Made by a program: the position numbers and the translations under genes. A DNA stretch of 64,000 nt from Zygnema cylindricum (taxonomy: Eukaryota; Streptophyta; Zygnematophyceae; Zygnematales; Zygnemataceae), in assembly GCA_037447655.1 (NCBI GenBank), contig JBBHKE010000339.1:404552-468551 (forward strand), in the 5' to 3' direction. The notes under the pieces are model-generated. The model made no database searches. It was not told where the DNA came from and was given only the letters and a program-made list of their open reading frames with translations. Shown in pieces: positions 1 to 55,525 of this stretch; the first letter of the stretch is position 1, and each line of letters opens with the position of its first letter.

Positions 1-8
1 CTAAAAAG

Positions 9-545
9 TTGGCACCAAAATTCACGCGCCCATTCACAATTTTGTCCCGTGTGGGCGACGTAGCTTACAGGTTGGACATCCCGACGGACTGGCATATCCA
101 CAATGTTTTCCATGTTTCACTCCTTAAACCATTCCGGGATCCTGATTCAGTGTTCCCTAATCGACGACGGCATACTCCTCTACCACCCGTTCACGGTACC
201 TCAAACGAGTATGAGGTGGAAGAGATTCTTCAGTCACGCCCCTCTCGGAATGCGACCTCCACCCAATACTTGGTACGTTGGAAAGGTTACGGTGCTGAGG
301 ACGACTCTTGGGTGGACGAGAAGGATCTGCATTCCCCGGAGTTGCAACGCCGGTTTCGGCAGAGCGAGGACACTCAGCTTTACCAGAGGGGAAATCGCAG
401 CGGCCGCAACAAAAGAGCGAATCGCAGTGGCGCAACCATCGCAATCATATTAGGGACGCGGCAAAGAACCGCAGCGACGATGTTACCACACTGCAGCGCC
501 GTAGCAGCGCAGCTACCGCAGCGCAATATGGTCACGATGACGTAA
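9..545 (+). CDS. Ty3/gypsy integrase C-terminus with chromodomain (partial polyprotein, 5' end outside window)
   Basis: This is the last part of a chromovirus Pol polyprotein. Residues 1-45 resemble the integrase C-terminal beta-barrel (PFTILSRVGDVAYRLDIP, then HNVFHVSLLKPF). Residues about 67-118 form a chromodomain: YEVEEIL, then YLVRWKGYG, then DSWVDEKDL with the aromatic cage residues Y, W and W in place. In chromoviruses this module guides integration to particular chromatin. The apparent start is only the window edge; the frame is open from the first bases. The stop is at 543-545, and the residues after about 120 look like random translation of a GCAGC-rich stretch, so the natural stop may have been lost. 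It is one of the best preserved reading frames here. Confidence 0.88.
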   Translation: MAPKFTRPFTILSRVGDVAYRLDIPTDWHIHNVFHVSLLKPFRDPDSVFPNRRRHTPLPPVHGTSNEYEVEEILQSRPSRNATSTQYLVRWKGYGAEDDSWVDEKDLHSPELQRRFRQSEDTQLYQRGNRSGRNKRANRSGATIAIILGTRQRTAATMLPHCSAVAAQLPQRNMVTMT

Positions 546-660
546 GAGGATCGCAGCACCACCGTTGCGGTGACAGGAAAGCGCAACGGCGCAATTGTGT
601 TTCACTATGTAGGTGACGACGAACCCTCGGTTCCGCCGCAGCAGCGCAGTTTTATAAATG
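366..660. repeat. GCGCAGC-rich low-complexity stretch
   Basis: The stretch is packed with irregular GCAGCG, GCGCAGC and GCGCAAC words and overlaps the tail of the integrase frame. A TATA-like TTTATAAATG lies at about 650. The same vocabulary returns at 2225-2335 in the putative LTR, and in family D LTRs at 17.6-18.0 kb and 21.06-21.35 kb. It may be LTR U3 sequence, but I could not define ends. Confidence 0.55.
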
Positions 661-667
661 TTGGATA

Positions 668-2125
668 ATGCGATACCCTCGCACGCTGCGACGCTTCGCA
701 CAGCCCAAGAGTGAAACCCTCAACCCCCGGGAATACGGATGTCATTCGTCCTCACAACCATCCCAGTCTCGGCAGCTTGGAAACTGCTTCTCTATGCACA
801 ATAAGTCTACCTCCGCTTCTGGAGCTACCGGAATTGTCTGGTTCAGCCGTGTCTATGGCGTCGTCGTCCTCTCCACCCTCGAAAAGAAGAGACTGGTACG
901 GGTGGGACAAGGAGACCCGAGCCGTCCCGAGAGATTGCTGAGGGCGGCGGAAGCCATGGTGGAAGCAAGCAGGCGAAGAGAGGTAGAAGTGGAGCCGGAA
1001 TCGGAGGATAGTGTTAGTTGCGAGGCAGGACCGGCGGAGACCAGTGGAGGGGAGGGGTCAGAGAACTCACAGGACCCTGAGTACACCCCGACCTGGGAAG
1101 GTGATCAAGAACTTCAAGCAGACCATGAGCTGTCGGAGGCGGAAGAGCCGGAACGCGAACCAACGCCTCCGCCAATTGAGGAGCGCGCCTCAGATTTGGA
1201 GGTGACGCGGGACCCAAACAAAGAGAGTACCGCAGACGAACAGTCGTCTGAAAGCGCGGAGAGAAAGGCGGAGGAACAATACCCCAGCGGTGACGATGTG
1301 TTCCTCTTGCGCGAAAACCGGCGAGATTCGGAGGAGGAGAGTGAACAGGGAGAGGAAATTCCCGACTACCTCTTCCCACTACCGGTCGACACCCAGCATC
1401 CGGACCTCGCCTTCAGCTTCGCCAAAAGGTTTTATTGGGACCCCTCAGAGTGGCCCAAAGAATAGCGTATAAGGAAGCCTGGAGATCCTATCCGCATCGC
1501 TGCCAACGTTCCGTCACACCCAGCGTGGAATTTCATGCGGACCAAGGACCTGGGGAATAATCATAAGGGCTATGTGCAGCTGAATCCTCACACCTTACCG
1601 TTCGTAGAGGTGGTGGAGGAAAACTACAGGTACAGAATTGACGTTCCCGGGTTACTTCGCCATTATCACCCGTGGGATGTCCGCCTCCACGACATCATCT
1701 CTCGAGCGGAAGTCACCCCTGAAGTGCGAGTACTCAAGCTGGCTCGAAGGAATGCTCTGCAGCGGGCCCGAGCTGCAAGAAAACACGTGTCCTTCAAATT
1801 ACGAAAGGTACCTCGGTGGGAACCGGCGGACGAGGAACCAGAGGAAGCTACCCCAGGGGCTGAACCCGGAGAACCCAGGATTCCGGCACCCGAGGAGCCT
1901 GCACCTGCGGACGTTCCGCAGCAAACCGAAGTACCCATGGAGGAAGCGGAAAATCAGGTTCGGGAACGAATTACTCGGCGGCGGTTGGCAGCTGCAGATC
2001 GTCACATCGCGTTACTGGAGACCCGATGTGAACAGCTCCAACATCAACTCGACGTCCTTCGCCAGGAGTTCGAGAAGTATCGTGAAGAAACATACGACAT
2101 ACTCCGGCAACTGCAGTTTCCCTGA
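668..2125 (+). CDS. Unknown acidic/coiled-coil reading frame with one in-frame UAG at 1463-1465
   Basis: Two open stretches, 668-1465 and 1535-2125, lie in the same frame, with only the TAG at 1463-1465 between them (codons 1466-1534 are open and read on sensibly). The first half is very acidic (many E, D, S, P). The second begins with a basic region (RIRKPGDPIRIA) and ends with a helical coiled-coil-like stretch (ALLETRCEQLQHQLDVLRQE). I recognise no family. It lies after a chromodomain integrase and before a putative LTR, so it could be an extra 3' ORF of that element or the only ORF of a second, non-autonomous one. An alternative N-terminus (MASSSSPPSKRRDW, from 855 in another frame) may be the real start after a frameshift. 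Function unknown. Confidence 0.5.
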
Positions 2126-2170
2126 CTCCATCAAAGTTCAGCGGGACGCTGAATCCTTAGTGGAAGGCAC

Positions 2171-2590
2171 TGTAACAGGGTTACAGAATTGGGTACTTAG
2201 TAGTTAGGGCTAGGCTGCTATAGTTGCGATTTTAGAGCAGCGCAGTTGCGATGCCAGACCAGCGCAGCATAGCAGCACAACAACTTAGTAGCGCAGCAGC
2301 GTAGCGGCGCAGCATAGCAACGCCGCAGAATGTAGATTGAACTGTATAGTTCTAGAAGGAAGTTTTGGATAGATCTCGGTTGACCGTGAAGGTCCACGTG
2401 TACAATTGTATAGTACTAAGTTGACTAGCAGTTAGTTAGTTTAAATAGTCGAGTAAGACCTAGTGATTGACACCTGAAGTAGACCTACGCAGCCAGCGCA
2501 ACCTTGTACTCTCCTTTCAATTAATAAAGCCAACTTAGTCTGTGAGTTCTACGTGCCCTGCTGTTGCTACGGGGAGGTCCTTGGTGTCTT
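2171..2590 (+). mobile_element. Putative 3' LTR of the gypsy element (ends uncertain)
   Basis: It begins with TGTAACAGGGTTACA just after the coding region. It holds a GCAGC-rich block (2225-2335), a TATA-like TTTAAATAG (about 2438) and an AATAAA signal (about 2523), in normal LTR order. No second copy lies in the window, so the right end is a guess; by about 2640 the sequence is family E LTR. Confidence 0.5.
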
Positions 2591-2599
2591 CCGCTGTGC

Positions 2600-3055
2600 A
2601 CTGTGGTGTGTTGTGGTATATTGTTGCCTCTTTTACATTTATCAAAACAATGGCAGTCTGTTTTCTGCATCTTTGACCTGTTGTTGTGATCACTCTGTTT
2701 GGTTCTTTCATGTGAAACTTTATGGAGTTATTCTATAATATAGAATCTATATGTGTGTAAAGTTTCATTGTGTTCCAATATATCTGTAAGATTCTATGAA
2801 CAGTCTAAGTGGTTAGTTTGTGAAGTTGTCAGCTATTTTTGGGAAACTCTGGAGCTTATATCTTCTAGATGCCTTGGTGGGCTTGGATGTTACTTTGGGA
2901 GTTTAATGTGTATATAGTATACTGCACATTGGCACAGTTTGGGGTGATTTTTTTTATTGTGGAGTAATCTGTGTTGTCTGAAACACTATTGTTTTTGAGG
3001 TAGTCTGTGGGTGTTTCCGTGAGTAATCCATGGCTGAAATAGACTATGGACAACA
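2600..3055 (+). mobile_element. Family E copia LTR, 3' part
   Basis: From about 2644 to the terminal CAACA at 3051-3055 this matches the end of the solo E LTR at 23,923-25,185 and the reverse complements of the E LTRs at 18.9, 40.4 and 42.7 kb. Shared landmarks are GGCAGTCTGTTTTCTGC, GGTAGTCTGTGG and CTATGGACAACA. The 5' part is missing. Confidence 0.75.
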
Positions 3056-3830
3056 GGAAAATGGGGCATGATGCGCGAATATGTCCAGAAAAAACTGCTA
3101 CTTGTACACATTGCAAGCAAAAAGGACATTATGTCCAATGTTGTCATATAAAGAACCTAGAATTTTCTTATCAAAACCAAACTAACAGTGGTGGCATTCC
3201 TGCTTGATCCGCAAGACCAATTCAACCGGTTAACGAACATGGAAAAGACACCACTCCACCTAAGGTATATCGAAGAGATAGAGAACATTTGGAAATGCAA
3301 GAGCAAATGGCGGTCAAGATGAAGAAGCAGTTTGCAGCCTTCATGGCTCAAATGAAGCCACAATTTACAAGCATGGCTTACACTGTTGTACACATGCCCA
3401 CGTTGGCATGTCAAATCTTATGAGACTCCACCGTCCAACAACGAGAGGCTACGTTTGATAAAGGTTCGACCGATTAAAGCCGTGACGGTGAAACTCCTAA
3501 CACGCATATTTCGTTGTCATTTACTAAAAAACCCTCTCCTCCCATGTTCGAAATCGCTTCAACCATCGCGGTTGAAGCCTCAACATAGTAGATCGAACCA
3601 TACATCAAGCACATCAAGTGAAAGAACGCTTGTGCATTCTATCCACTATGATTTGTGACACTTCAAATTTTCGTTCTACCTCCGGTAGGTCAGTTGCAGT
3701 AACCGCTTTACAAGCACTGCAGGTGCATAGAAATCTTGCTGCTATTCAACCTATTTTTGTAGAGAAGCGATATTCCCTCGATCGTAAAATCAGTTTTTTG
3801 GATAACAGAAATGGTCCATTTTGATCAATG
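3056..3830 (+). pseudogene. Gag zinc knuckle and following region of DG gypsy element
   Basis: Translation from 3064 gives MGHDARICPE followed by CTHCKQKGHYVQCC, a C-x2-C-x4-H-x4-C nucleic-acid-binding knuckle, with the tail of a preceding one cut off by the E LTR. Downstream is a Gln/Met/Lys-rich segment (MQEQMAVKMKKQF) of nucleocapsid or spacer type, then decayed sequence with several stops up to the protease. I assign it to the same element as the protease and methyltransferase because it is contiguous, same strand and in the expected order, but no LTR confirms this. Confidence 0.55.
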
Positions 3831-4357
3831 GTATAGCCCCTTCCCTGCCCCTCATGGATACGAGTGGAAAGCCGGTGATATTGGGCTCTAGCTTTGCACT
3901 TAAGCTTAGTCTAACTCGAAACAAGTTTCAACCTATTCCGACTCGCTTGTTAACATCAGCGGATATAACCGAGCCAGTTTTAGGAATCACTAACGAACCG
4001 CTCGTCTTCCGGTTCCAAAATGGAACGGACAATGACTTTGCATAGATCTCGGTTCACGCTTTAGTCACTAAATGTAGTGACTCTGAATGCATAGTGGGAC
4101 AGGACGTTATATTTCGTGTAGGGGGTGGAGTTGACATGAATGATCAAACATTTTCTTATAGGCCCACTAACTTCCCAGAACGCACAATGTACATTTTGCT
4201 AATTTTCGCTAAAAAACCCATGCTTGCTATGGCGCATATGGCCACCTTCATAAGTGCATTTTCAGGGAATTCTTTGGGGGCCGAAATACTTCATTTATTG
4301 CCAGGGAAGAAATTTTGCCTGATTGTTCTTACTTGCGAGAAATTTTCAGCGACATAG
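3821..4357 (+). pseudogene. Retropepsin domain of DG gypsy element, one in-frame TAG
   Basis: Frames 3821-4045 and 4094-4357 are the same frame, separated by the TAG at 4043-4045. The active-site segment reads PLMDTSGKPVILGSSFA, a decayed version of the retropepsin L-D-T-G-A signature. After the stop come HALVTKCSDSECIVGQDVIF and a DMNDQTFSYRPTNF stretch, the usual second half of gypsy proteases (hydrophobic strand, then G-Q-D). It would cleave the polyprotein; the D-T-S-G core and the stop suggest it is inactive. Confidence 0.7.
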
Positions 4358-4520
4358 GATATCTTATAGATACGAGGGAATTTGATCGCATCTATAACCA
4401 AACCTTCTCAATTCCACTATATCAGTGTCTCCTCCAATCCAAATCCCTAAAAACTTGTCTGGGTTTCTTCCCATTTGTTCGAATCCGGTCCAATTAAGAC
4501 CTCATCCAAATAGATTGGTG

Positions 4521-5526
4521 ATTTTGGACCTCTTCGCTGGAATTGGCACTTCCCTTCTTTTTCTGTCTTCGAAATGGATTATTAATCCGTTTTTATTATT
4601 TTGTCGAGATTGATCCTTTAGCACGAAAAGCACACATCATTGTAATCTGTTGCATTCCCAATACCCGCATTTATTACCAAAATCCGCATACCAGCATATG
4701 CAAACTGCTCACCCACAAGACATCCGAATTCTGGGCAAACATCAATTACTGGATATTGGTCCAATCGATCTGGTTTTTGGCGGATGGGAGTGCCCAGAAA
4801 TGTCGCGGGCCAAGAAAGACCTTGGATTGGCGGATCCCCGAACCAAAATATTTTTTGAATTTGTTTGCATCCTTCAGTTTTGCACTTTAGAGCATCATAT
4901 GGGATATATCTTGGAAAATGTCGCAGCGTGTAATTACCCAAGACCTACGGTCTTGGCTGATTATAAGCGGATAGAACAATTAATATGCCCCGCCATTTAT
5001 TATTGATGCCGCTCGCCATGGTTCAGTAGCACACCGGGTTGGCTCCAAATGGATGAACCTGATTGATATTGGTCGACTCCGTGAGGCTAACGTGTCAGTT
5101 CGTCCTCCTCATACAGACATTCAGGCTGCCCTTCTTCCTTTCGATAAGGTGCTGCCTTGCATTCAAAAGAACTATCCCGACAATTTCAATATCAATGTCC
5201 CGAGTCAACCTCTCAAGGTTCTTCCTACCTTAGTTTCTTACCCACATTTGCATGAATTCTCTAATGACGGTCCTGGTATGCTCCGAAACATTCATACCGG
5301 TGAGCTCGAAGAGACTACTTTTACAGAGTGAGAACACCTCTTGCATTTCATCCTTGGCACTACAACAGCTTTTAGTGTTACGGAACGTGAAAGATGCACT
5401 TTATTAGATCTTGTTATTGACCCGCATTCTTTGTCTTTTATTTTAGGTCTTGGGTTTGCAACTGGTCGCCACTCTCAGGCACATCTGTCTCAACTAGCTA
5501 GGGGGGGGGAATGCATCACTAAGTAA
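4521..5526 (+). pseudogene. C5 cytosine DNA methyltransferase domain carried by a gypsy retrotransposon (decayed)
   Basis: The conserved C5-MTase blocks occur in canonical order. Motif I is ILDLFAGIGTSL (4521-4556), binding S-adenosylmethionine. Motif II is VEIDPLARKAH (from 4603, shifted frame). Motif IV is DLVFGGWECPEMSRA (4767-4811): the catalytic Cys is kept but in E-C-P rather than P-C-Q. GLADPRTKIFFEF follows as motif V. Motif VI is YILENV (Glu-Asn at 4914-4919). Motif VIII-like DAARHGSVAHRV starts at 5005 after a second frameshift, and TERER (about 5380) precedes the C-terminal end. Frameshifts and stops (for example at 4611, 5004 and 5329) make it inactive. It follows the protease on the same strand and is linked to more polyprotein-like sequence downstream, so I read it as part of the element, not a host gene. 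The motif order excludes a DRM-type (rearranged) enzyme. Confidence 0.8.
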
Positions 5527-5808
5527 ATCGTTTCGTCCCACTCTCAAAGGGACCACATTTCAATTTTTCCTCTTTCCTTCTACAATTCCACCAGTTATGG
5601 AAATCTCTATCTATGATTTCCTCAATCTTAACCATATGTCCTGGTCTTTCGCTGCATACACGGCTGTCTAGTCTGCAAGTTCCATGCATATCTACCCCCT
5701 CCTCATTGGATTGCTGCTTTTCCAATACGTAGTTGGAATCATCTGGTTAATTGCCTTAAACAGACACCTGTGGCTGAAAAGTTAGGACAAACACTTATCA
5801 AAGAATAA
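5527..5808 (+). pseudogene. Further polyprotein remnant of DG element
   Basis: After the methyltransferase a frame from about 5683 reads FHAYLPPPHWIAAFPIRSW and continues through NHLVNCLKQTPVAEKLGQ to a TAA at 5806-5808. This resembles polyprotein linker sequence before a reverse transcriptase, but I cannot assign a domain. The minus-strand copia B5 begins here (junction about 5797-5808); no DG reverse transcriptase or RNase H is found in the window. Confidence 0.4.
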
Positions 5809-6178
5809 ACAATACAATTTGAGAATGTAACTATGGATGTCTTTCCTTCTACTAACACTTTCACATCTAACGATCCTACAAGAGTAGTTGTGACTATCCT
5901 TCCATCCCCATACTCTATCTCTATAGTGGGAATTTTTTTTATCTTAATGAACTGGTGTTTATCCTTACACATGTGCAATGAGGCACCTGAATATACAATC
6001 CAACTTGCTTCACCTTTCAATCCACCGAAAGCACATTTCTGCTCTCGTGGAATTTTTATTTCATTTGTGGCTTCCAACTCCTCATCTAATAGGAGCTCAT
6101 CAACCTCTTCTTTGGATTCCACCTCATGTACCTATGTTAGAAGGGCCTTTTTCTTTCCTCTTGGGGTTCCACCGGTCC
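5797..6178 (-). pseudogene. Copia B5 protease (truncated)
   Basis: On the minus strand, a Glu-rich linker leads to KCAFGGLKGEASWIVYSGAS, then LHMCKDKHQF and a GDGRIVTTT strand. This is the copia retropepsin (W-I-V-D-S-G-A-S-x-H-M), with the catalytic Asp changed to Tyr. It is homologous to the copies at 25.3 and 45.8 kb. The domain breaks off at about 5800 against DG sequence, so integrase, RT and the other LTR are lost. Confidence 0.78.
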
Positions 6179-6189
6179 TCCCCTCCTTT

Positions 6190-6978
6190 TACCGAAGCTC
6201 GGTTAGCTTTGTGTACTCCACAATATAGTGCATTGGTTTCTTACAAAAATGACATAAACCCTTGGGAGCCCTTTGTCTAAACTCGTCGGTCTGATTTTTC
6301 TGCCCCCTCTCTCCGTAATTTCCGATCGGTTTCCGAGAATCCTTGTTCCTCCAATCAGTCCCAGCTGCCAAGGCTTGCCCACTGTTTTCGCCCTTCGGAT
6401 CTCAATCGTATTCTCCTGATTGAGAATCATCTCTACCACTGAGTTCCATATCCACCTTGAGTCTGCCAAGTGATGCACACGGTTGACTATGTTTTCGAAC
6501 TCATCGGGTAACTTCATCAATAAAGAGCTAACCTTTTCCTTTTCACCTTTTCCAACACTCTGTAGTTCCATAAAAAGTGTAGCAAGCTCAGTGCAAAAAT
6601 CCAACATCTTCCTCCTTTTGTATGCATACTCCTTAATTTTTTTATCAGCCAACTGTTGTTGCTGAATCCTACCACTTCGGTATATCTGTATGAGAGCTAC
6701 CCCAAGATTAGATGCCCTCTCTACTTGCAAATGAGGAGATGCTAGCCCTTGAGTAAGATTGAGGAGAATAAAGTGCTTTGCCGCCATATTGTTGAAGTCC
6801 GAGGAATCAGTATCATTCTTTTGTTCCTTGAAATAGGTGACATGAATGCCGAACCTGTTGCTATTGGTGTGGTCATCTCCTTCTCCTTTCCTTTGTCCAC
6901 CACATCCCCTTTGTTTGTCTCCTGTGTTGAAGATGTATCTGTTTTCCTAGTGAATCTGCCTCCTTCACCCTCTAACCA
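6190..6978 (-). pseudogene. Copia B5 gag (UBN2-type)
   Basis: The minus-strand frame at 6203-6787 has the helical copia gag fold (MAAKHFILLNLTQGLAS, KMLDFCTELATLFMEL, LPDEFENIVNRV), with an upstream segment to about 6975 (FMSPISRNKR). The zinc knuckle is CHFCKKPMHYIVEY, with the last Cys lost. The gag N-terminus and LTR end are missing: at about 6978 the gag is fused directly to LTR sequence, an internal deletion. It matches the gags of B1 and B2. Confidence 0.75.
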
Positions 6979-7848
6979 CCTTCACCCTTGTAAAGGCAAG
7001 ACTCCCCTGAGTCGATAACAAAAAGAATCTGTGATTTTGCTTCCCTAAGCAATAAGTTTTGGAGGGTCAAATTTTACCTTTTGAATAGAAGCTCTCTGGG
7101 AGAGAGGGTCCTATCTACCAAATTTTTCTAAGTCCTATCTCTCTCTAAAACTCTATCTACTGACGTACGACACGAATCATGATACTGTGCCGTACAGAAA
7201 GGTACAGCTCCCGGTGTACTTTCTGTACGGATAGTGTATGACAGGGCCGAAAAGTCGACACATGTCATATCCGGATTCGTTTCCGTAATCATTGGAGATG
7301 CCAAAATCCAATATCGTGGTGCCACGTGTCATCCGTTGTGGCGATGAACATAAACCGCCGAAATCTTCTTTCGCAATCTCGACATTCTTTGTGGGCGTCC
7401 GATTGAATGCCGATTTCAATCGTAGCCGTCATAAATATTTTCGCGGTATTTGTTTCCCTATTGAAACAAATGTTTGGTACTTGTTTCTTCTCCGTTCTTG
7501 TAATCCATACTTTTCATAACTTACTCTATGTATCGCGTATATAGTTGCCATTCAATGAATTAGCCTATATGTTAACGTTAATATACTTATTAAGCCCTAC
7601 ATCACTTACCACTAGATGTAGACTTAATGGATGAGTCTATTGGCTACTAGCAGCCTTAATTCACTGTAGGTACCAGGATCAAATCTAGGACCTGAAAGCC
7701 CTTTTAGTAAATCAACCACTTTACTACCCGTAAATGAAGTAATATATTACCAACAAGTGTGGGAATTGGAGGGAGAAGTTATAGGCATATTGCCTCGGCT
7801 TTTTCTTCTACATTGAATTTTTGACATAGAGAGTACCAAAAGAATCAT
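6979..7848 (-). mobile_element. Copia B5 5' LTR (minus strand, both ends eroded)
   Basis: Reverse complement of the family B LTR: compare the ACTCCCCTGAGTCGATA segment near 7005-7020, the CTCTCTGGGAGAGAGGGTCC segment near 7095 and the tRNA-like GGTACCAGGATCAAATC near 7670 with the other B copies. The start end (about 7810-7848) is mutated, and chromovirus sequence follows. Confidence 0.72.
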
Positions 7849-8690
7849 TAAGCTCTTTAGCTGAAAGTCCTCAGTTGAGTCGATCAGATCTAGAGGTTAA
7901 GGAGTTAACTGTGGAGGGCAAACTAACAAATGGAAAGGCTAGTATAGGTGAATTTATTATGATGCTAACTACACTCTATTATTTGAACAATCCTTATGAT
8001 GAAACTCTTAACAACAAACCTATGTTAGGACAGTTAAGTAATGATGACAGTGGACACAATTTGATCAGATTTGAGTCTTTAGTGGAAGCAAAACCATTGA
8101 GAGTTATGGTAGATTCACGTGCTACACATAATTTTATTTCACATAAGTTTGTTGAGGAAAATAAAATTCCTACAGTCATAAGGGAAAAACCTTTACATGT
8201 TCAAGTGGCAAATGGTAATAAGTCCACATTAGATTTACAAACTGACACAATAGAAGTTGACATCTAGGGTCATAAAATGAAAGTTGTGTGTGAAATAATG
8301 AATTAGGGTAGTGAGGAGCTAATATTGGGAAAGCCTTGGTTAACAGAACATAACCCTCAAACTAATTCAAAAACTAACACCTTCAGAGTGAAGTCTGAAA
8401 ACGATTGGAAGGTTTTGCAAGCATTACCTTCAAAGAAGTTGCATAAGAATCATATAAATAACATAACCAAGTTGGGAGTGGAAGGTTTGATTTCTGCTAA
8501 ACAATTTAAAAAGCATTTAAAAGATAAAACAAATCATGCTTTCTTGTTATTAGGAATTGAGGCAGTAACTGATGAAGGGGGGGGAGAAAACACTAACATT
8601 GATGTCATTCCTAAATCAGACACCACTAAAACTCTTGAAAAACAAAAATCTGATTTTGTAACTGACATTAATACATCTGATGCTATTGTT
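7849..8690 (+). pseudogene. Chromovirus protease region (Ty3/gypsy)
   Basis: The reading frames 7875-8267 and 8325 onward carry the protease. The active site is in VMVDSRATHNFISHKF (about 8107-8150), where the usual D-S-G-A-T is D-S-R-A-T. A later segment [14 protein letters not shown] (about 8315-8352) is the characteristic I-L-G-x-x-W-L strand. Two stops lie between. No gag is visible upstream because copia B5 abuts at about 7850. A long charged linker leads into RT. Confidence 0.8.
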
Positions 8691-9560
8691 AAAGGTTTGA
8701 TTTCTAAATTTCAAGATGTTTTCCCAAGTGACTTACCCTCAGGGAGGCCATCTTCTCGAGATGTGGAACATGTGATTAACCTTGAACCTAGATGTATTCC
8801 TCTTGTCACAAGAATTTATAAGCATATCTTCTTTGAGTTGGAGGAGTTAAAGAAACAGATCAAGGAGCTTTTGGCGAAGGGACATTTTCAGCTCAACAAA
8901 ATCAGTGTACAGAGCACCTGTTCTCTTCGTCAAAAAAAAGGACGGACGATGAGGATGTGTGTCGACTATCGTAGTCTGAACAAGATTACGGTGAAGGATA
9001 AGTATCCGTTACTTATAATTTTTGATTTGATAGATCATTTGAAAGGTGCTAAACTATTTTCTTTTATTGATATGCGTAGTGGCTTAATCAGGTGCCAATT
9101 AGAAATGAAGATGTTGATAAAAATGCTTTTAGAACTAGAGTCAGTCATTTTGAATGGATAATGATGCCATTTGGTTTGACGAATGCACCACCTACTTATC
9201 AAAGATTAATGAACCAAACATTTTTAGATTAGATAGATGAGTTTGTTCACGTGTTTATAGATGATTTTTTAATTTACTGCGAATCTAAAGAACAACATGT
9301 AATTCATCTAAGAAAAGTGTTGGAAAGGTTAAGGGAAAGAAAGTTATATGGAAAATTGTCAAAATCAAGCTTTTTTAAAACTGAACAATTATTTTTGGGA
9401 CATATAGTTAGTGGGGAAGGTGTTAAAACAGATCCATCCAAAATTACTATAATACAAAATTGGAAGCAACCCACTAATGTCACATAAGTTAGATCATTTT
9501 TGGGATTGGCAACTTATTACATGAAATTATCAAGAACTTCAGTATGATCGCCGCACCATT
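8691..9560 (+). pseudogene. Chromovirus reverse transcriptase
   Basis: After the N-terminal [17 protein letters not shown] region come [19 protein letters not shown] and FSFIDMRSG, classic gypsy RT motifs. A frameshift near 9092 leads to [20 protein letters not shown] and the catalytic FIDD (9254-9265; Y-x-D-D variant), then LGHIVSGEGVKTDPSK. An in-frame TAG near 9229 and others make it non-functional. It synthesises cDNA from element RNA in functional relatives. Confidence 0.88.
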
Positions 9561-10075
9561 GACGGATTTACTTCAGGAGAATAAGACGTTTGTGTAGGGA
9601 GCCAATCAAGAGAGAGCTTTCGAGGAACTAAAAGGGAAGTTGACCTCTGCCCCTACACTGGTGTATCTAGATCATGTTGGGGAATTTGAAATTCTAATCA
9701 CTACTAATGCATCGGATAAAGGTCTAGGTGCAGTCATAAGTAAAAAAGTCGGCAAACATTTTCATCGTATTGCTTTAGAGTTCAAGAAATTTAATGATGC
9801 TGAAAAAAACTATCCAGCACAAGAAAAAGAATTAATTGCAATTGTTCATGCATTGGTGATATGACGTTGTTATTTTCATACTAAAGAATTTATAGTTCAC
9901 TGTGATAATAAGGAACTCTCCTATCTACAAAGATTTAGTGATGCACAGATTATGACTCGCAGACAGGTTAGGTGGATGCAAAAATTAGCATATTTCAAAT
10001 TTAATTTCAAATATATTCCTAAAAAGACAAATGTAGTCGCAGATCCTTTAAGTAGATGTTTTGAAATATGTGTGA
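9561..10075 (+). pseudogene. Chromovirus RNase H
   Basis: It begins with FEELKGKLTSAPTLVYLDH, then the RNase H core ILITTNASDKGLGAVIS, where the first catalytic Asp is replaced by Thr-Asn context, and EKNYPAQEKELIAIVHAL with the catalytic Glu. After a stop near 9862, FHTKEFIVHCDNKELSYL and TNVVADPLSR follow, the usual end of the RT/RNase H unit. Order and spacing match a gypsy Pol. Confidence 0.83.
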
Positions 10076-11350
10076 TGGTTCGGGATATATTGTTTTTAGA
10101 TGTTGTTAGAAATGGTTATGATAAAGATCATTATTTTGCTGTGATTTGCAAGAATATTGCAGGAGGGAATTCTCACCCATTGAATGAGAGGCATATCAAA
10201 AAGTTTAGAATAGAGGATGGTTTACTGTATTTGCGAACAAAGGATAGAATATGCATTCTTGAAATGGGAGACTTAAGAAAACAACTTTTACAGGAAGCCC
10301 ATGAGCATTAAGGACTTCTAGGTCGAGATAAAACTCTCAGTCCGTTGCAGAGTAGATTGTTTAGGCCAGGGATGGCAAAGGAGGTGTCGAAACACGTGGA
10401 AACGTGTGTCCCTTGCCATCAGAGTAAACAAAGTAACCAGAAACCTAGAGGTCTGTTAAAACCTTTATATATCTCCGAAAGACCATGGAAATCTATCATT
10501 ATGGATTTTAATGTCATGTTACTTGCTACATCTAGAAGAAAAGACAATATCTTCGTCCTAGTCGATAGGTTCAGTAAAATGGCATTCTTTATCCCTTGCA
10601 AAACTACTTATTCAATTGTAGATATTGCAAAGTAATATTTTGACAACGTGGTCAGACATCATGGAGTTCCCTTGTTTATAGTCAGTGATAGGGATTCTAA
10701 ATTTACATCTGCAATTTGGAAAGAATTGCAGCAAAATTTAGGCACTGAATTAAAAATGAGAACCTCTTATCATCCTCAGACAGATAGATAGATAGAAACG
10801 ATGAACCGTACATAGGAAGAAATGCTAAGGACTGTTTGGAGTGGAGTTCAAAACACATGGGAATCTAAACTGCCATAAATAGAATTTGCATACAATTCAT
10901 GTAAACATGCTAATACAGGATTCTCACCGTTTGAAGTTGCATACGGATACGAACCGAGAGAAGCATTAGACTTAATAACAAGGGTCACTCAAGAGAATAG
11001 GGGTTATGGAACGGAAATTTGGGAAAACATTCAAAAGGTTTGGAAAATAATCCAGGATGCATTGGTGGAGGCACAAAGAAGGCAAGATCTAAATGCTAAC
11101 CGCAAACGGGGTGATTGGATGGTAAGCACATGTGACAAGGTTTGGCTTTGAACAACTCATTTTAGGTGCAAGATCGAGGGACAAGCGGATCCTACTAGGA
11201 AATTTGCTCCTAGGTACATCAGACCATTTACTGTAATCGAGATGATATCCTGAATTGCTGCCAAATTGGACTTTCCGACTTCAACAAAAATTCATCCAGT
11301 GATACACATTTGCTAATTTAAACTAGCAAGTCTTCGACCAACCGAAGGAG
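10076..11350 (+). pseudogene. Chromovirus integrase
   Basis: The zinc-binding region retains HEH near 10300 and CVPCHQSK near 10408. The catalytic core has WKSIIMDFNVML (first Asp, about 10500), [11 protein letters not shown] (second Asp, about 10688) and an E-T-M-N-R-T segment (Glu, about 10796). Several TAG stops break it, including one in a short GATA repeat at about 10785. The core continues with FAYNSCKHANTGFSPFEVAYG, and the C-terminal barrel with APRYIRPFTVIEMI near 11210. It joins the element cDNA to host DNA in functional relatives. Confidence 0.85.
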
Positions 11351-11382
11351 AATTGTACTTAGATCCCTCAATAATTATAGAA

Positions 11383-11530
11383 CCCGAGGTTCACAGATGG
11401 GTAATAGATTCGGTTGGTCAACAGTTGAAGGTCGACAATACTATATTCTGGCAAGTGCATTATCTAGGAAGGCCAGAATATAGGTTAATTTTATAAGATA
11501 AAAATTCGGAGTTTTTACAAAGGTATTAAA
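11383..11530 (+). pseudogene. Degenerate chromodomain at integrase C-terminus
   Basis: The segment EPEVHRWVIDSVGQQLK, then FWQVHYLGRPEYRLIL, then a stop and FLQRY, aligns by eye with a chromodomain (E-V-x-x-I-L-D, Y-L-V-x-W-x-G, final helix). It sits where chromoviruses carry this module. Cage residues are partly changed. Confidence 0.6.
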
Positions 11531-11592
11531 GGGATAATAATATAGAAGTCGCGTCTTGAGAATAAAATGTGTTTTAACTAAGGTTAGTTAAA

Positions 11593-12587
11593 TTTAAGGA
11601 GGGGATGATGTAACAGTAATAGTGGATCAAACTTGTTTGTAAATGGGTATTTCATTTTTACGAAAATAGAGTTTTTAATTTTATAGATGTTTGTGAAAAA
11701 ATCGCACGATTTGGGGTTGTATTTTAAAAACATATAGTGATTAGTGTATTTAGGCGACAGCGTGAGGTCAAAATAACGATTGGGGGTTCATTGTTACGGG
11801 TTAAGGGTTAAACTATCCGCAGAATTTTAGGCGTACAATTATAAAGTACTAAACGAAATCAATATTTCGTTTGGTATGCACGATGGTTCGTTTCGTACAA
11901 TTTTTAGTACGAAACGTCACTTTCAGTTTATGGAATTTCGTAGGAAGTTTCGCGTGCGAAATTTGCGACGCACTTTCGTGCGAAGTCGCCTTTCGTTTTG
12001 CACGCACTTTTGCACGTAAATGTTCCGTAGTAAAACGTAGCGTTTGATTGGTTAGAAATGCTACGTAGTTAGTAAGAGATTTCCCACGTTTTTGCATTAG
12101 TCAGTTTGAGTCCTTGTTGATCAATGATTGGCCCAGGTAAAATCTGTTCAACGGAGCGTTGACTTTGGCCTGGTAAGTCAAAGGCGATGATGGATAAATA
12201 GTGAAGTCTAAGAGGAGAGTAAACATATTTCCCTTTGGAAAAATTTGTGGAAATTATGACAGATCTTCGTCCTGAGCGATTAAAACCAAATTGGAGCATT
12301 ATCATTTTGGCAGTGAAATCTCCTTCAAACTATGTAGTGTTTTAGTAGGTAATAGATAAAATTATTAAGAGTGGAGAGTAGAGGAAAACACTTAAATAAG
12401 AAGGGTTGAGCCACGAGGGCAAGAGACCAAGCTAATGTTATGTGGACAAAAGCTTCTTCTAATTTAAAGTTTATCCTTATGTGAGTGCTTTCGAATGTGG
12501 ATGTGAATTTTCTAATGTGTGGAATGTGTGGTTGAAATTGATTGAAGTAATGGGATTTTCAGAGAGGTTAGAAATCCTATTACACCA
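11593..12587 (+). mobile_element. Chromovirus 3' LTR with polypurine tract
   Basis: The polypurine tract AAGGAGGGGA (11596-11605) is followed by TGATGTAACA at 11606. The matching end is TATTACACCA at 12578-12587, giving an LTR of about 982 bp with imperfect inverted ends. The interior is rich in TTTCGTACGAAA-like palindromic words (11850-12010). Beyond 12587 a DG-type integrase resumes, suggesting the chromovirus was inserted into it. The 5' LTR is not present. Confidence 0.7.
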
Positions 12588-12599
12588 AGGTAAAGTATT

Positions 12600-13245
12600 T
12601 CGGGGATAATTTTAATAGATGCTCGATGAGGTTATCATCAATTATCGTCGTAATAGTTGCGATCACCCGTAGGCCGATGGACAGGCTGAACGGGCAGTCC
12701 GAATATTTAAGCTTGCCTTGCGTAAGCATTGCTTAGAGAATCACATTTCGGTTTGGGAAGATCCTTCGGTTACATTACCATGGGATATTGCATGTCGGTT
12801 CAATCTAGCCTTGCCAATTTAATCCCTTATTATGTTTTATTTGGGCCACAACCTCGCTCGGTTGTAATATTCGAAAATCTGCAAGTTTTTCCGCTTCCGC
12901 TGATGCCTGACACGATTTTTATTGGAAGAACTCACTCGTCGTGCTTTGCTTTTTGCCCGTGAAATGCCCATGGCTTTTGATAATTTGTAGATTCCTTGCA
13001 TCGGGACACCTTTTGGTTTTCCACCACCCGAAGCGGCAGTTACAGGCTGCAACAGAAGTCCTATCGCGTGGGAGACTATGTTTATCTTTGCAGGCAATCT
13101 TTTAACACCTTGGACACTGATGTTTTTGCACACATCCTACGGATCATCGAGGTTGATCCAAACGGAATGTTAGGATTACAAGGAGCAGACACGCGGACGT
13201 TTCGAGAGCACTTCAAGAATTGTTCTCCATGTTATTTATCAGATT
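12600..13245 (+). pseudogene. Integrase C-terminal half of a DG-type gypsy element
   Basis: ADGQAERAVRIFKLALRKH (from 12673) contains the catalytic Glu of the D,D-35-E core. LPWDIACRFNLALP follows, then, after stops and shifts, LFAREMPMAFDNL and the frame from 12996 (TTRSGSYRLQ, YRVGDYVYLCRQ, MLGLQGADTRTFREHFKNC). The last is the barrel-like C-terminal region of a gypsy integrase with a G-D-Y-V motif. No chromodomain follows; a PHD finger does. Confidence 0.75.
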
Positions 13246-13295
13246 TGATGCAAGATATGGAACCTAAGCGGATGCCAATTACGGAGGTGATAACA

Positions 13296-13430
13296 TGTAC
13301 CTTTTGTCATCAATCGGACAGGGAAACTACCATGTTTCTTTGTGATGATTGCAATCAGGGGTTTCACATGGAGTGTTTGGTGCCACCATTGTTGGCCGTT
13401 CCGGATGGTCACTAGTTTTGCCACGGATGT
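13296..13430 (+). pseudogene. PHD finger fused to gypsy integrase C-terminus
   Basis: In the same frame as the integrase tail: CTFC, nine residues on MFLCDDCNQGFHMEC, then LVPPLLAVPDGH, a stop (TAG 13413-13415) exactly where PHD fingers have a conserved Trp, then FCHGC. This is the C4-H-C3 zinc layout of a PHD finger, which in other proteins reads histone H3 tails. TGG to TAG is a likely simple loss. It probably served for chromatin targeting, as chromodomains do in chromoviruses. Confidence 0.82.
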
Positions 13431-13479
13431 CGTGAGCTTCCGATCGTGTTGGCTAGCTCCTCCGCCGACTAATGAGCTG

Positions 13480-14879
13480 GGTGGGGGAATAAACCGATCT
13501 ATCCATAACCAGCTAAGTCGTTCACTTTTCTTTTTCTTCCACCTTGTCTTGTTATTATTTATCCATTTTTCACTTCTGTGTTTATTTAAATCACGATGTC
13601 TTGTTATCATTTGGGTTTTATTCGAGCATAGTTGATGATATAGCATGCATTTTCACGTTACTTGACACATGCACGATAGCTGTCATGCCGCATCTCGTTG
13701 GCCACTTTCCTTGTTCATATTTAGGTGTTAGGAAGGGCGGCCGTCACACTTATTTGCATTTGGGTATTATACAGGTTTCGCAGATGCGTACGTTTCATCC
13801 CCAGTAATTCCTGCGACGACGAGTTGGACCGTACCTGCGGTTCTATCCTACATACTTTCATTTCCTGGGATATCCGCTGATGACTTATTTTCAAGTTCAC
13901 TTCCGTAAGTCTAATTTTATTGTACCTACATCTCCCGAAATTCCGACCGACGACAAATTTGATCGTTTCGCGCGAAAGAGCTTCTCGGCCGCCAACGTAG
14001 AAATATAAAAATTTCAAAATATAATATTCGGACTATTGACGCGATGTACAGACAAGTCGACTGTCAATTCTGACGACGCGACGCGATTGGACCATATTTA
14101 GTCGTGAACCATTTGGAGGTTCACGCGTTCACACATGGATAGGAAGGGTTTTAATCCGTAGGTTATATATTTTATAAGGTAGGGCATAGGATTACAGCCG
14201 CCTATTGGCTGAATCCAAACTAGAAGCAAATACTTACATAGCACGCAGTACTCTTATTCCCTTATTTTCGCTAGGCATATGCCTTGGTACTTAGTATATT
14301 TTAGATTATATCCTGCACACAATTTTCAAGTACACGAATTATTATTAATTTTAGTATTGAAGATTTTTTGCAGCCTTTTTTTTTTTGTAAAATTTTCTGA
14401 AACATATTAGAGGCGATTTTCTGCCTTAACGTGAAGCGTCTAACTTCTTACATTATCAATCTCTTTTAAAGCCTGAAATATTAATCCATACGGCTTTGGC
14501 TTAGACCTACACGGTTTCCCTTCACCTATTTTCGTTTGTTTAAGTGGATTTTGATCGCGTCTTCATAACACAAACTCTTTTTCCCGACTTTGGCATAACT
14601 TTAATAAGTGTGGAAGTTACATTTTGGGAATATCATTTTGTTGTTTTTATTTCTTGTGATTGTGTATTTATTTCTATTTGGCTTATGCGCATCTTTTGAG
14701 TTTGGTTATCTCAAACCTCATAAGTGTTTTGCATATTGTCGTTTTAAGTTTTTGTTTTCTGTCTTGGTTGTTTCTATTTTGATTAATTCTCTTTAGGTCT
14801 AAATTCAGATTGTGTTCAATGAGATAACTCTTGCAAGGAATATAAATAGAGTGGGGCGTAGTGGCCATCCATTGGCGTA
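13480..14879 (+). mobile_element. Putative LTR of DG-type gypsy element
   Basis: A polypurine-like GGGTGGGGGAA (13472-13486) ends the PHD region. The next 1.4 kb has no coding signal, and its first 195 bp recur at 14,881-15,075, as expected of LTR starts. Inside, TTTAGTCGTGAACC, the GGCCGCCTATTGGC-like word near 14,195, and the ACGGCTTTGGCTTAGACC region near 14,490 resemble 54.36, 54.46 and 54.8 kb, so a diverged copy exists there. Confidence 0.5.
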
Positions 14880-14880
14880 G

Positions 14881-15075
14881 TAATAAACGTACCTAACCAT
14901 AACTAGATGAGTCGTTCACCTTTCTTTTTCTTCCACCTTGTCTTGTTATTATTTATCCATTTTTCACTTTTGTGTTTATTTAAATCACGATGTCTTTTTA
15001 TCATTTGGGTTTAATTGGAGCATTAGTGATGATATTGCATGCATCTTCACGCTACTTGACACATGCACGATATGA
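14881..15075 (+). repeat. Second copy of the DG LTR start (direct repeat of 13,487-13,685)
   Basis: About 195 bp from AATAAACG to CACATGCACGATA repeats 13,487-13,685 with few differences (shared TCTTTTTCTTCCACCTTGTC and TTTATTTAAATCACGATGTC). It stops where copia D integrase begins at about 15,076. Confidence 0.75.
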
Positions 15076-36114: not shown

Positions 36115-37740
36115 AATTACCTTAGCTGGAACAGATATTACGTTAATTGACTTATACATAACGTGGCATATAGAAGTCGTTTGAGATATCTTTACGCGTG
36201 GACGACTGCGCCGGTTTGTGCAACGGTAACGTTGTCGCACTTGTCTACTGGGTGTACGGATTGCGCAGGATGTACCGTTGTCTTAGAGCGTAGCTGGATT
36301 TTCTTAACCCTAAAATTAAGCTGCCAATAGGAAATAAACTCAATATCTTGTCGTTTGTACGACTGTCTAGCCAACATTTCTTACTGTTACGTACAGTCGA
36401 CAGGTATAGCTTCAAGGTGAACCTCTATTAGGCGTCGACAGTAATCGTACGGATACGTTTACTGGGAGTAATATTTCGTTTCCTTCTACATCAGGTCGTG
36501 TCAGCAAGGAATCTATCGCTTATGTGCATTCTTTCGATTGGATGCACGTAGGTTCATGTTTTGACAGCGAGCATGTCAAATATTCCAAAAGCAAAATATA
36601 TGAATTCGTCTCCGTACAGCCAGCCGCAAAATTACATTACGTGAATGTACAATTTGTACGTTCGTGTTTCATCTTTTTTATCGTTGTTTTGTCGTTCGTG
36701 GTTTGTTCTTGCGCCGCAAATTCCGGATGTCAACGGATGGTGGAGGAGGCGTCACGGCACATTCTTCGACAAATTTCTTTTTGTAGTTTTCGTTAGGATT
36801 TGATTCCCGCCCGTCCGAAGGCTTGTGGCATATGTTCAAAGGCGCGTGGCAAATGCCACGTGTAGGGATTTTATTCTAGATTGCACGTGACCATTCCACG
36901 CGTTAAAATTTTACACGTCTAGTTTCTAGCTAGTCTCTTCGTGAGGACAGTTGAGCAGAGTCGCCAGACACTGGACAAATTGAGCGTTTGCTTCGAAAAC
37001 ATTTAATCGGATGGTCAACGTTATCACCCAAAAGTTTGGAGAATCTTGACGAATCTCTTGTAATCATGTTTAAAAAAAAAAAAAAACAGTACGGCCATGT
37101 TCGAATTGAGCTGGACTTGTACAAAAATACACCTTTTCCAGTAATGAACCTCACTTTTCGCCTGATTGAGGTTCACCCTTAGTTGTCTTTCTTTTGAACC
37201 GACATCATATGCTAGGAGAAAAACAAAAATAGTGGCTGTTGAACACACCCTAGATTTTGCCGTACTTGCCACACCAAATCCTGCTTGTGGACAAGATTAT
37301 AGCTAGATGGTTTTTGTCTTTTACTGTTGTCAGACCACCGTTTTTGTACGGCATTTAGCTGACGGACACACTTTGGCCGACTGACCGGGAAAAATACTGT
37401 AGCTTAGAAGAACGGTGGCCGACAAGTATTTGTCGGCTAGTTTTTGACGCGTCACGACAGAATGCGACAAAATTTTTGTGGTCATCAACGCTTTAATTTT
37501 TTTTTTTAAGTCACGTTACATTTTTTTGTTGTATTCTCTCTAGTCAAAAAAGCGTCAACTTTTCATTGGATCACTCTGATTGGTGGTAACCTTTTAAAAT
37601 ATTGGAAAAAAATCTTAAGTAAATTTTCTATTGGCGAGATGACCACATGACTGTACCCTTATCAGTATTAATAAGAGAACGTTGTTCGCCTTCGGGGAAA
37701 CATTTATATAGGCGCTGTGTCCGTCTCGATTTTTTTTTAT
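36115..37740. other. Noncoding stretch, nothing recognised
   Basis: CpG-rich, with many CGTAC words and short inverted words such as GGCAAATGCCACGTG (36,850). An A run at 37,070 and T run at 37,498. No domain on either strand. Confidence 0.4.
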
Positions 37741-39842: not shown

Positions 39843-39972
39843 TTGATATCAAGAAAAATATGCACATCAATACAAACCAAAATCTGTAATTTCAAAAATT
39901 TAAATCATATTAACAAAAAACATATAATTAGATATTGAATACATATTAATTAACATTTATCAATGTGAAACA

Positions 39973-40367
39973 GGTACACTAATCATTCTAATGTGTAATA
40001 TCAACAGTGAAAGGGGACTTTGTAATGGAACCAAACTCCGAGTGGTGGGTCTTTCCAAAAATTGCATTCATGCAAAAATACTCACTAGTGTTGCACGAAA
40101 CACCGAAATTTTCATTTCGCGTAAACCGATGATCAACAACGATAAAAAATTTCCATTCCAAAACAAACGGCGACAATTTCCTGTACAAGTAGGATTTGCT
40201 TTCACAATCAACAAAGCAAAAAGACAATCAATACACCACTTGGGTCTATATTTGCCCCAATCAGTGTTAACACACGGACAACTACATGTGGCGTTGTCGC
40301 GGGTCACTTCACACGCCAATATAAAAGTGTTGATTGAAGAACAAATACTTGAGGAACCGATACTTGT
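39973..40367 (+). pseudogene. Helitron PIF1-type helicase, C-terminal exon (left of E2 insertion)
   Basis: The frame reads LIILMCNINSERGLCNGTKL, the conserved segment before the last helicase motifs, then IFISRKPMINNDKKFPF, RRQFPVQVGFAFTINKAKR (helicase motif V-like), LGLYLPQSVLTHGQLHVALS and RVTSHANIKVLI (motif VI). This is the end of the Helitron RepHel protein, needed for rolling-circle transposition. A splice acceptor-like AAACAG lies just before 39,973, but no upstream exon is found. The frame is cut by E2 and continues at 43,122. Confidence 0.85.
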
Positions 40368-40792
40368 TGTTGTCCATAGCCATTTTAAGCATGGATTTAC
40401 CCTCGAAAGCACCAGAGACTACTCCAAAAACAACCTAATTTGAGTCCACTCTGAATTCTACAGAATAAACAAAACACGCTCAAACTACACGAACAGATAG
40501 TTTGTAGGCCACTGAGTATTTCACAAATTTTCATATAAAAATACCACACAGACTTATCACACCACTCAATCAAAGTTGCAGAAAAGGAGTCTGCTAGAAC
40601 TTTGATAAATCTAACCAACTTCACAATGAAGTCCCAATATCGTACGTTCTTATACAATTAGTACCATTACTCCCCCATTTCGCAAATCCATTCGAACCTC
40701 CACAGTAAATCAAGATAACATTAGATTCGGTTACGAAACATTGTATACGCACAAAACGACACACACCCACGAAATTAACTTTTAAACCAACA
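40368..40792 (-). mobile_element. Element E2 3' LTR
   Basis: On the minus strand it starts TGTTGGTTTAAAAG at 40,792 after the polypurine tract TTTTTGGGGGAG, and ends CAACA at 40,368. Shortened family E LTR (425 bp) lacking the central part of the 1263-bp form. Confidence 0.82.
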
Positions 40793-53127: not shown

Positions 53128-54000
53128 CGACCTCATGGAATTGTAACTTAGGGAACTTACTTTGTATTGTAGCGAAGATCCTCCGTACACGTTTTTCAAG
53201 TGTACCAATGTGAACATCAACATTGTTACTTAAGGCAGTGACGATTGTATACGTCGACAATGTTCGTGACGGCTGTCACCTTATACAATTTGTCTTGACC
53301 CACCGTATGTTTTGAAAATTTTTTGTTACGTCATAAGACACATCATATTTTTTCAAACGTTATAGTATGTCGCATGTCTTTGTGTGACATGGTAGACGTA
53401 AAACTTTCTAGCTTGTGTTGTTCATGGCATAACAAATGGTTGTGTTTGCCTCTCCTATCTGGTCGCCATGAAAAAATAAAGAATTATTGAGGCAACTACA
53501 AAATAAAAAGCATTTTTTTTTCGGCGCGTTTGTTAGATCCTTCCCAACTTGACTTGGTTTGTGCATCTGTTGTGGCCCTCAAGATTTTGCCTACCTCTAA
53601 TGGTGTCGCGAAGTAATGAATTTTGGAGTGAAAGAGAGGCAAGGTAAGGAATATGAGAGAGGCGCGAGATACAATGGCGCCTTCACATATTTTTCACCTT
53701 TTCGTGAAATGGCATTACGTGAGACCCCTACGAAGCAAAATTCCGTAGAAGATGCAAGTGGACAAAATAACACAACTGTGTACTTTTTCTCCCCGTCTGA
53801 AAGCAATGTTTCTTTTTCTTAAAATACATTGCCAATATATTTTACGGTAAAGTTTGGAGATGTGGTGGTCGTTGGTCAAAACCACATAACGAAAACATAT
53901 GGTACGTTTTAAGTTTGAAGATGACGCAAATTGTACGCTTCATTTTTGCAATTTCTCCGTACGATTGTAACTTTAACAATACGACACTGTCATGCTGCAT
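53128..54000 (+). mobile_element. Family F element, diverged copy
   Basis: Matches F2 (35,333-36,114) at its start (ATTGTAACTTAG, TTTGTATTGTAGCG), in ACGATTGTATACGTCGACAA, in the GACATGGTAGACGTA region and near the end (GATGACGCAAATTGTACG). The terminal AGGGTGTGTCCCC is not kept, so limits are approximate. Confidence 0.5.
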
Positions 54001-54002
54001 AG

Positions 54003-54135
54003 TATTAGCTACACGCATGCACGATTATTTGGCACGCGCGCACGATAGTTTGCACGCCTGCACGATTTTAGGCACGCGCGCACGATATTTGACACGCGCG
54101 CATGATATTATGCACGCACGCACGCATGATTTTTC
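54003..54135. repeat. CACGCGCGCACGAT minisatellite
   Basis: About six units of roughly 20 bp (GCACGCGCGCACGATATTTG) in a row. The alternating CGCGCG core is the kind of sequence that can adopt Z-DNA. Confidence 0.75.
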
Positions 54136-54189
54136 GTTCGCACCTACGATTTTCTCACGGTCGCTTATTTATTGTTTGTTCATTGTTTG

Positions 54190-55120: not shown

Positions 55121-55284
55121 GTCTTAGCATTCTTGTCCAAAAGCATTTTAGAAAAATATAATAAAAAAAAATATAAATTTTATTTAAAAAAAAAAAAAAA
55201 CATTTTGTTTTTATATAATTTTTCCATTCTTTTCTTTAAAAGCTTGTCACCTAACTTGCTCCCACTCTACTTCTTGTCTGCAGA

Positions 55285-55525
55285 GTTAGGTCTAAATTCT
55301 GTGGCAGATTTAGGGTTAATCTGCAAAATTAGGGTTTGGCCTCAGATTTAGGGTTTTGGCTGCAGAATTAGGGTTGCGTCAAATTTAGGGTTCATTTCTT
55401 GTGATTCGAGCTCCCTAGGTCGGTATCAAACTATTCCTTGGCTGCAGATCCTGGGTTTTGGCAGATTGGAGTTAGGGTTTGGCTTTGGAATTAGGGTTTT
55501 GCAAGTGGAATTAGGGTTGGCTGCT
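55285..55525. repeat. Dispersed TTAGGGTT words
   Basis: About eight TTTAGGGTT or ATTAGGGTTT words every 20-30 bp, mixed with TTTGGC and CTGCAGA. Not a tandem telomeric run. Such telo-box words occur near plant promoters, but no gene follows. Confidence 0.5.

Follow-up and report, generated by a model that had tools for sequence, protein, structure and literature searches.

A dead retrotransposon copy in Zygnema cylindricum that very probably belongs to a Ty3/Gypsy family with a DNMT3-type methyltransferase in its polyprotein

Does a C5 cytosine methyltransferase that lies directly downstream of retrotransposon protease motifs in a streptophyte alga belong to the retrotransposon or to the host? 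The question is raised by a 64,000-nucleotide stretch of the Zygnema cylindricum genome (contig C262, 404552–468551; genome of 352.8 Mb in 2,689 contigs), referred to here as the window, in which a sequence-only reading described a Gypsy element bearing such an enzyme at positions 3821–5526. The segment is very probably a dead copy of a Ty3/Gypsy family whose polyprotein carries a DNMT3-type methyltransferase between protease and reverse transcriptase (RT) and whose rve-type integrase ends in a PHD finger. Methyltransferase-bearing Gypsy elements are already known, and the family extends that rare kind. The statement in that reading that retrotransposon-borne methyltransferases occur in dinoflagellates and charophyte algae agrees with the account in PMC5890265; DNMT3s within streptophyte and dinoflagellate retrotransposons have been reported in PMC12344493, and methylase-bearing transposons are described as not present in land plants in PMC6338049.

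Window 3004–5829 is one decayed Ty3/Gypsy copy, and 12547–15072 is most likely its 3′ half. The earlier extent of 3821–5526 does hold the protease and methyltransferase motifs, but the element is longer on both sides. An uninterrupted relative, P0001, aligns with 3004–5829 by tblastn through gag, protease, methyltransferase and linker, in agreement with the protease-then-methyltransferase order on one strand that had been read from the motifs, and the nearest family copies match at 83–85% DNA identity from 3056/3064 to 5799. All of these parts lie on the forward strand. The C-terminal part of gag, with its CCHC zinc knuckle(s), occupies 3004–3585 (P0001 residues 437–628, 55%), and the aspartic protease region occupies 3576–4300 in two frames (residues 626–707 at 46% and 709–867 at 64%); the frames tested across this protease region matched no Pfam family. 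The DNMT3-like methyltransferase domain, interrupted by frameshifts and stops, spans 4461–5505, where the domain of another copy, L028, aligns by tblastn at 69% over 4461–4997 and 54% over 4564–5505, with 85.6% DNA identity. A comparison with PF00145, which the sequence-only reading had suggested, matched the frame at 4614–5006 (130 residues; E = 3.2e-5; 23.9 bits, cut-off 22), and the neighbouring frames at 4398–4610, 4984–5331 and 5332–5523 matched no Pfam methyltransferase family on their own. The motif IV Cys is retained, as had been noticed, within WECPEM, with Glu preceding the catalytic Cys. The linker between methyltransferase and RT (5506–5829; P0001 to residue 1380) is the last polyprotein piece before the break, and the DNA match stops within it at 5799.

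Foreign sequence at 5800–12546, matched by L015, L016, L036 and L037, replaces RT, RNase H and the first part of the integrase, and P0001 residues 1380–2096 have no match of their own in the window by tblastn. This insert holds a copia-like piece on the minus strand at about 5803–6967, named by eye, and another Gypsy at about 7859–12365. Beyond it, on the forward strand, the C-terminal half of the integrase lies at 12547–13260 (second frame of L019, residues 915–1061 on 12547–12987 and 978–1221 on 12738–13466; tblastn), and the PHD finger at the integrase C-terminus lies at 13290–13442, within the match of P0001 residues 2160–2394 to 12762–13466 (60%). The integrase end with its PHD finger at 12547–13466 is probably what had been meant earlier by a PHD-type Gypsy integrase. 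Repeats follow in the order B1-A2-B2, also on the forward strand. B1 (13488–13678), with a G-rich tract just before it, aligns with B2 in 192 columns at 91.1% identity, the differences being 15 substitutions and 2 gap bases; A2 (13681–14881) is 81–82% identical over about 960–980 columns to the A repeats of L017, L018 and L019; and B2 (14882–15072) would form the right end of the element, as judged from the B2 terminus of other copies, GCACGACA. The B1/A2 junction at 13675–13684 reads GATAGCTGTC, and differs from the palindrome GACAGCTGTC found at this junction in L009, L011, L018 and L023. Conventional equal direct repeats are absent within window 1–9000. The two halves probably derive from a single insertion, because they share strand and subfamily and carry complementary parts of the polyprotein. 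The copy is dead: its frames contain stops, and its 1,031-column alignment with the L028 domain has 6 gap openings that total 10 gap bases.

Chance is excluded as the origin of this arrangement by the recurrence of the DNA of window 4398–5526, at 83–86% identity, in at least 39 other places, three of them clearly partial (a lower bound: 40 of 304 candidates were scored, the window included). A profile search with PF00145 finds at least 123 places in the genome, all above the cut-off (123 of 782 candidates scored), of which 38 are interrupted by a stop within the match and 12 belong to open frames of at least 900 residues. Among 15 loci fetched with about 10 kb each, and selected because their frames were long or their scores high, tblastn locates the methyltransferase in all, RT in 13, integrase in 12 and protease in 9, the last count coming from the first-lineage query only. 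The stretches read at L014 and L016 contain no RT; that at L014 has protease and methyltransferase. In seven loci (L009, L010, L011, L012, L013, L022, L023) methyltransferase and RT share one Pol frame, which bears out the earlier description of a Gypsy element with its own C5 methyltransferase. Copies without retrotransposon domains, or a host gene with introns, had been named as what might be found instead; RT adjoins the enzyme in those 13 loci, and the enzyme lies within uninterrupted polyprotein frames. Host DNMT genes are genes of their own, usually with introns and without RT, whereas the enzyme of this family is fused into Pol. A host DNMT gene or pseudogene lying by chance next to retrotransposon remains would fit the host DNMT3 type of the enzyme and the broken state of the window copy, but the many other copies, the adjoining RT, the single frame of L009 and the same fusion in proteins from other sources all speak against it; this reading is refuted by the fused frames and has a vanishingly small probability.

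The family to which the window copy is assigned is large and has been recently active in the same genome. L009 (contig C1344) is a single frame of 2,395 residues from gag to PHD finger, in which Pfam lists CCHC, methyltransferase, RT, RNase H, H2C2, rve and PHD, the CCHC match (16.6 bits) being under its cut-off. L010 (C1407) shares 6,567 bp with it at 99.92% identity, in a match that ends inside gag; the different 5′ truncation of L010 marks a separate insertion, and the near-identity points to recent spread. The domain order is unchanged in a second lineage (L012, L013, L022). The Pfam scan covered 14 frames, and in the uninterrupted copies RT, RNase H, H2C2 and rve are above cut-off. Protease is weak: Asp_protease_2 reaches 22.0–22.3 bits in L011, L019 and L023 against a cut-off of 24.3, and no protease family is listed for L009 at E 0.01, so that the position of its protease is taken from homology with those three copies. 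The PHD finger (PF00628) is matched at 1.5e-9 in L009 and 3.5e-10 in L019, and under its cut-off in L012 and L013 of the second lineage. No phage-integrase (tyrosine recombinase) family appears in the 14 scanned frames, which have rve and H2C2 instead, and no chromo family is listed in the Pfam results of the copies, which have the PHD finger at the integrase C-terminus instead. The family thereby resembles chromoviruses, which are Ty3/Gypsy elements with a chromodomain, in placing a chromatin-reading domain at the end of the integrase, and differs from them in that the domain is a PHD finger.

By sequence and by predicted fold, the enzyme is of the DNMT3 type. Among solved structures, the best relative in sequence is DNMT3A (E = 1.3e-10 and 1.2e-14 with two queries), followed by HhaI (0.0026 and 3.6e-5), DRM2 (0.0014, second query only) and DNMT2 (0.28 and 0.1); neither list, taken up to E 1, names a DNMT1 or CMT chain. 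The predicted fold of the methyltransferase, computed from 25 sequences, has a mean pLDDT of 84.8, and a fold search with it gave 204 matches at E ≤0.001, of which the best 50 are all DNMT3A, 3B or 3C entries, some of whose chains may be DNMT3L. Vertebrate DNMT3A/3B are thus the nearest solved enzymes by both measures, but identity in the fold alignments is 20–24% and L009 has no ADD or PWWP family. The motifs follow the unrearranged order I-IV-VI-VIII-X along the chain.

Is this enzyme still a methyltransferase? In C5 methyltransferases, Pro before the catalytic Cys is the rule. Of 111 proteins, 72 fitted the motif pattern, and the residue before Cys is Glu in 42 of these and Pro in 30; the first lineage has E-C, and the second retains P-C (P-C is read in L002, L012 and L014). 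The Glu, together with the silence of the Klebsormidium nitens enzyme in yeast, where it produced no methylation in an assay that its authors call inconclusive (PMC5890265), could indicate that the protein no longer methylates DNA and persists in Pol for a structural or RNA-binding role. Such a loss of function is unlikely, given that all 25 aligned sequences keep the catalytic Cys and the AH of motif VIII and at least 90% of them keep ENV, that the second lineage keeps P-C, and that the domain has been under purifying selection. The last point is shown in the few measurable pairs: dN/dS is 0.115–0.394 in 7 of 36 pairs, of which 5 compare distinct loci (L006 and L012 are the same place), dS is saturated in 28 pairs (dN 0.12–0.68) and one pair is identical.

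If the enzyme is active, it may serve the element. Freed together with Pol, the methyltransferase would methylate the new cDNA or the insertion site, and the methylated copy would then resemble host chromatin or be quietly tolerated; this role, proposed on the basis of sequence, is given slightly less than even weight. The sequence-only reading had suggested that the enzyme could have methylated its own cDNA or opposed host silencing. The Discussion of PMC5890265 proposes instead that such an enzyme is friendly to the host, silencing its own element and slowing its spread, which would accord with the more than 100 places tolerated in the Zygnema genome. Recent spread, evident from identical 931-bp repeats and from the near-identity of L010 to L009, argues against self-silencing, and it is accordingly an improbable alternative to a role in protecting the new copy. 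The PHD finger is nearest to those of PHF12, KDM5-type proteins, BAZ2B, WSTF and PHF21A, several of which bind unmodified H3K4. The finger might direct integration to chromatin with unmodified histone H3K4, a suggestion that is drawn from that likeness and is rather doubtful. One polyprotein in any case joins a DNA methyltransferase and a finger of a histone-reading type, and with more than 100 methyltransferase places and some recent uninterrupted copies, the purpose of a borne enzyme becomes testable; retrotransposons with this host-silencing type of enzyme had been described in two lineages (PMC5890265).

The ends of the family are as unusual as its coding content. Six copies had their ends read, and in four of them (C1344, C1915, C449, C2602) the order is A1-ORF-B1-A2-B2, the split-repeat arrangement of DIRS/PAT-like elements. 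In C1344, A1 and A2 are identical over 931 bp and B1 and B2 are 99.6% identical over 243 bp; in C1915 (L018), the A repeats (1,475 bp) and B repeats (192 bp) are each 99.5% identical; in C2602 (L023), the B repeats (191 bp) are identical and the A repeats are 93.75% identical over the 368 columns read, A1 being cut by the end of the stretch; and in C449 (L011), the values are 89.2% for A and 95.7% for B. C2577 has no split-repeat pair and has tandem repeats instead; these lie at 36272–37138 (L019/L046), where the terminal repeats would be expected. The one second-lineage copy read, C1374, has no split repeats in 14.2 kb. The element ends are TGTC...GACA, and a G-run directly precedes B1 in C1344, C1915 and C2602. 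The only copies with both ends cleanly read are flanked by 4-bp target duplications (TTGG at C1344, CCCT at C1915). The flanks of C1344 match window 7859–10018 and 10023–12365 at 86–89%, so that a related unfilled site lies at about 10018–10023 of the window.

PAT/DIRS elements and Chlamydomonas TOC1 have split direct repeats of the A1-B1A2-B2 type. PAT/DIRS elements use a tyrosine recombinase and make no target duplication, whereas the Zygnema family has an rve integrase and 4-bp duplications. A plausible route to the Zygnema copies is as follows. Reverse transcription would yield a cDNA with a B-A LTR, since B starts directly after the G-rich tract and the A2/B2 boundary resembles joined cDNA ends; the cDNA would be circularized; and the integrase would cut the circle open within the repeat, at the palindrome GACA-GC-TGTC, so that the CA ends are recessed, two bases overhang and the permuted A1-ORF-B1-A2-B2 copy results. 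The first step would not be wholly standard, because a search after A1 found no conserved primer-binding site, only TTCC being shared. This route, read from the repeats and junctions, is assigned an even chance. A DIRS/PAT-type life cycle, in which the RNA ends are completed on the internal B1-A2 template and an rve integrase has replaced the tyrosine recombinase, would also produce the repeat order and the lack of a conserved primer site; the repeats of the Klebsormidium element are called DIRS-like in PMC5890265, and the same circle can arise by either route. The G-rich tract that borders B1 on its left in C1344, C1915 and C2602, as in plus-strand priming of LTR elements, and the target duplications weigh against a DIRS/PAT-type cycle, which is nevertheless a serious possibility, if clearly short of even. 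The literature, as far as its accessible text extends and with searches not squarely aimed at the point, gave no account of split repeats together with an rve integrase and target duplications; the combination suggests an unusual integration route.

Relatives outside the window bear on when the enzyme was captured. The L009 methyltransferase retrieved 45 proteins at E ≤1e-5 (best identity 47%), among which the only named organisms are Haematococcus lacustris (P0015, P0046) and Closterium (P0047); a second-lineage query added 63 proteins, one of them named as Closterium, and neither protein search returned a match named as K. nitens. Domain order was laid out by BLAST for 48 proteins (the 45 relatives and P0001–P0003 of the Zygnema genome): the methyltransferase precedes RT in 9 (3 from the Zygnema genome, two of those near-identical), follows RT or RNase H in 35 and was unplaced in 4. 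All of these relatives were found through the methyltransferase, so that the count covers methyltransferase-bearing proteins only. Three proteins with the enzyme between RNase H and integrase (P0012, P0015, P0029) have long extra C-terminal parts beyond the PHD finger. In the methyltransferase tree the two architectures fall on opposite sides of one branch (99/89; 9 and 35 rows), the RT tree shows the same split (100/100; 9 and 32 rows), and a quick integrase tree shows it at 94, just below the star mark. The two groups appear to be streptophyte and chlorophyte, judging from the few named organisms. That relatives occur in several sources, and that the trees share one split, argues against a capture that was late and local. 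A viral-contig scan with the methyltransferase alignment gave 10 loci with 29–43% over short stretches, and none of these, judged from the match table, resembles the family, so a virus origin of the enzyme was rejected. A broader proposal can be tentatively made: long ago, and in a single event, a Gypsy lineage whose integrases end in PHD fingers acquired a DNMT3 gene, which then travelled with Pol through both chlorophytes and streptophyte algae and moved once within the polyprotein (before RT, or after RNase H), with no new capture in the Klebsormidium lineage; and the copies of these elements are circularly permuted as a result of the rve-type integrase opening circular cDNA at the palindrome inside the repeat. 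The proposal as a whole is somewhat doubtful; the position of the root and the single capture hang on one outgroup, a DNMT3A fragment on a very long branch.

The nearest known system is KnitGypsy-Dnmt3 of K. nitens, which likewise has a DNMT3-type, unrearranged methyltransferase in a Gypsy Pol frame, Gypsy domains with DIRS-arranged repeats and purifying selection, and which is treated as acquired in the K. nitens lineage (PMC5890265). Compared by description, the Zygnema family differs in having an integrase PHD finger ("PHD" is absent from the main text of PMC5890265), an E-C motif IV in its first lineage, target duplications and an unfilled site. The Discussion of the same paper gives the K. 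nitens element fewer copies than are found in Symbiodinium. The dinoflagellate SymbioDIRS-Dnmt3 and SymbioLINE-Dnmt are also retrotransposons that bear a DNMT, but they are a DIRS element with a tyrosine recombinase and a LINE, whereas the Zygnema family has an rve integrase and a Gypsy-type RT (PMC5890265). In the accessible text of the literature, no PHD-bearing, high-copy, two-architecture family with split-repeat anatomy was found. Zygnema cf. cylindricum SAG 698-1a is rich in copia elements (Copia 29.8%), and its PHD family is at least 9-fold larger than in relatives (PMC9915684); integrase-borne PHD fingers may account for this enlargement if that alga carries such elements, and DNMT3 and PHD gene counts in algal genomes may include transposons.

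Several further observations concern the rest of the window and the genome. Pieces at window 53981–58711 match the L011/L023 subfamily in its 5′ part, covering repeat and gag, with the gag piece at 58586–58711, and by these matches they represent a second, differently degraded element of the methyltransferase-bearing family. Window 1–545 is the GC-rich end of another Gypsy polyprotein, which by eye ends in a chromodomain, and the frame at 39928–40440 resembles by eye the C-terminal part of a PIF1/Helitron helicase. Searches of the genome for matK and COX1 yielded no organelle contig, COX1 giving two short pieces (43 and 64 profile positions), and the LEAFY DNA-binding domain had no match; for matK and LEAFY the 14 control genomes were all prokaryotic. 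A protein search with one GRAS exon returned a single remote transcript. GRAS genes without LEAFY would fit a streptophyte alga better than a land plant, which does not conflict with PMC6338049. By profile search, the GRAS genes are present as fragments, with 27 matches spread over 12 contigs.
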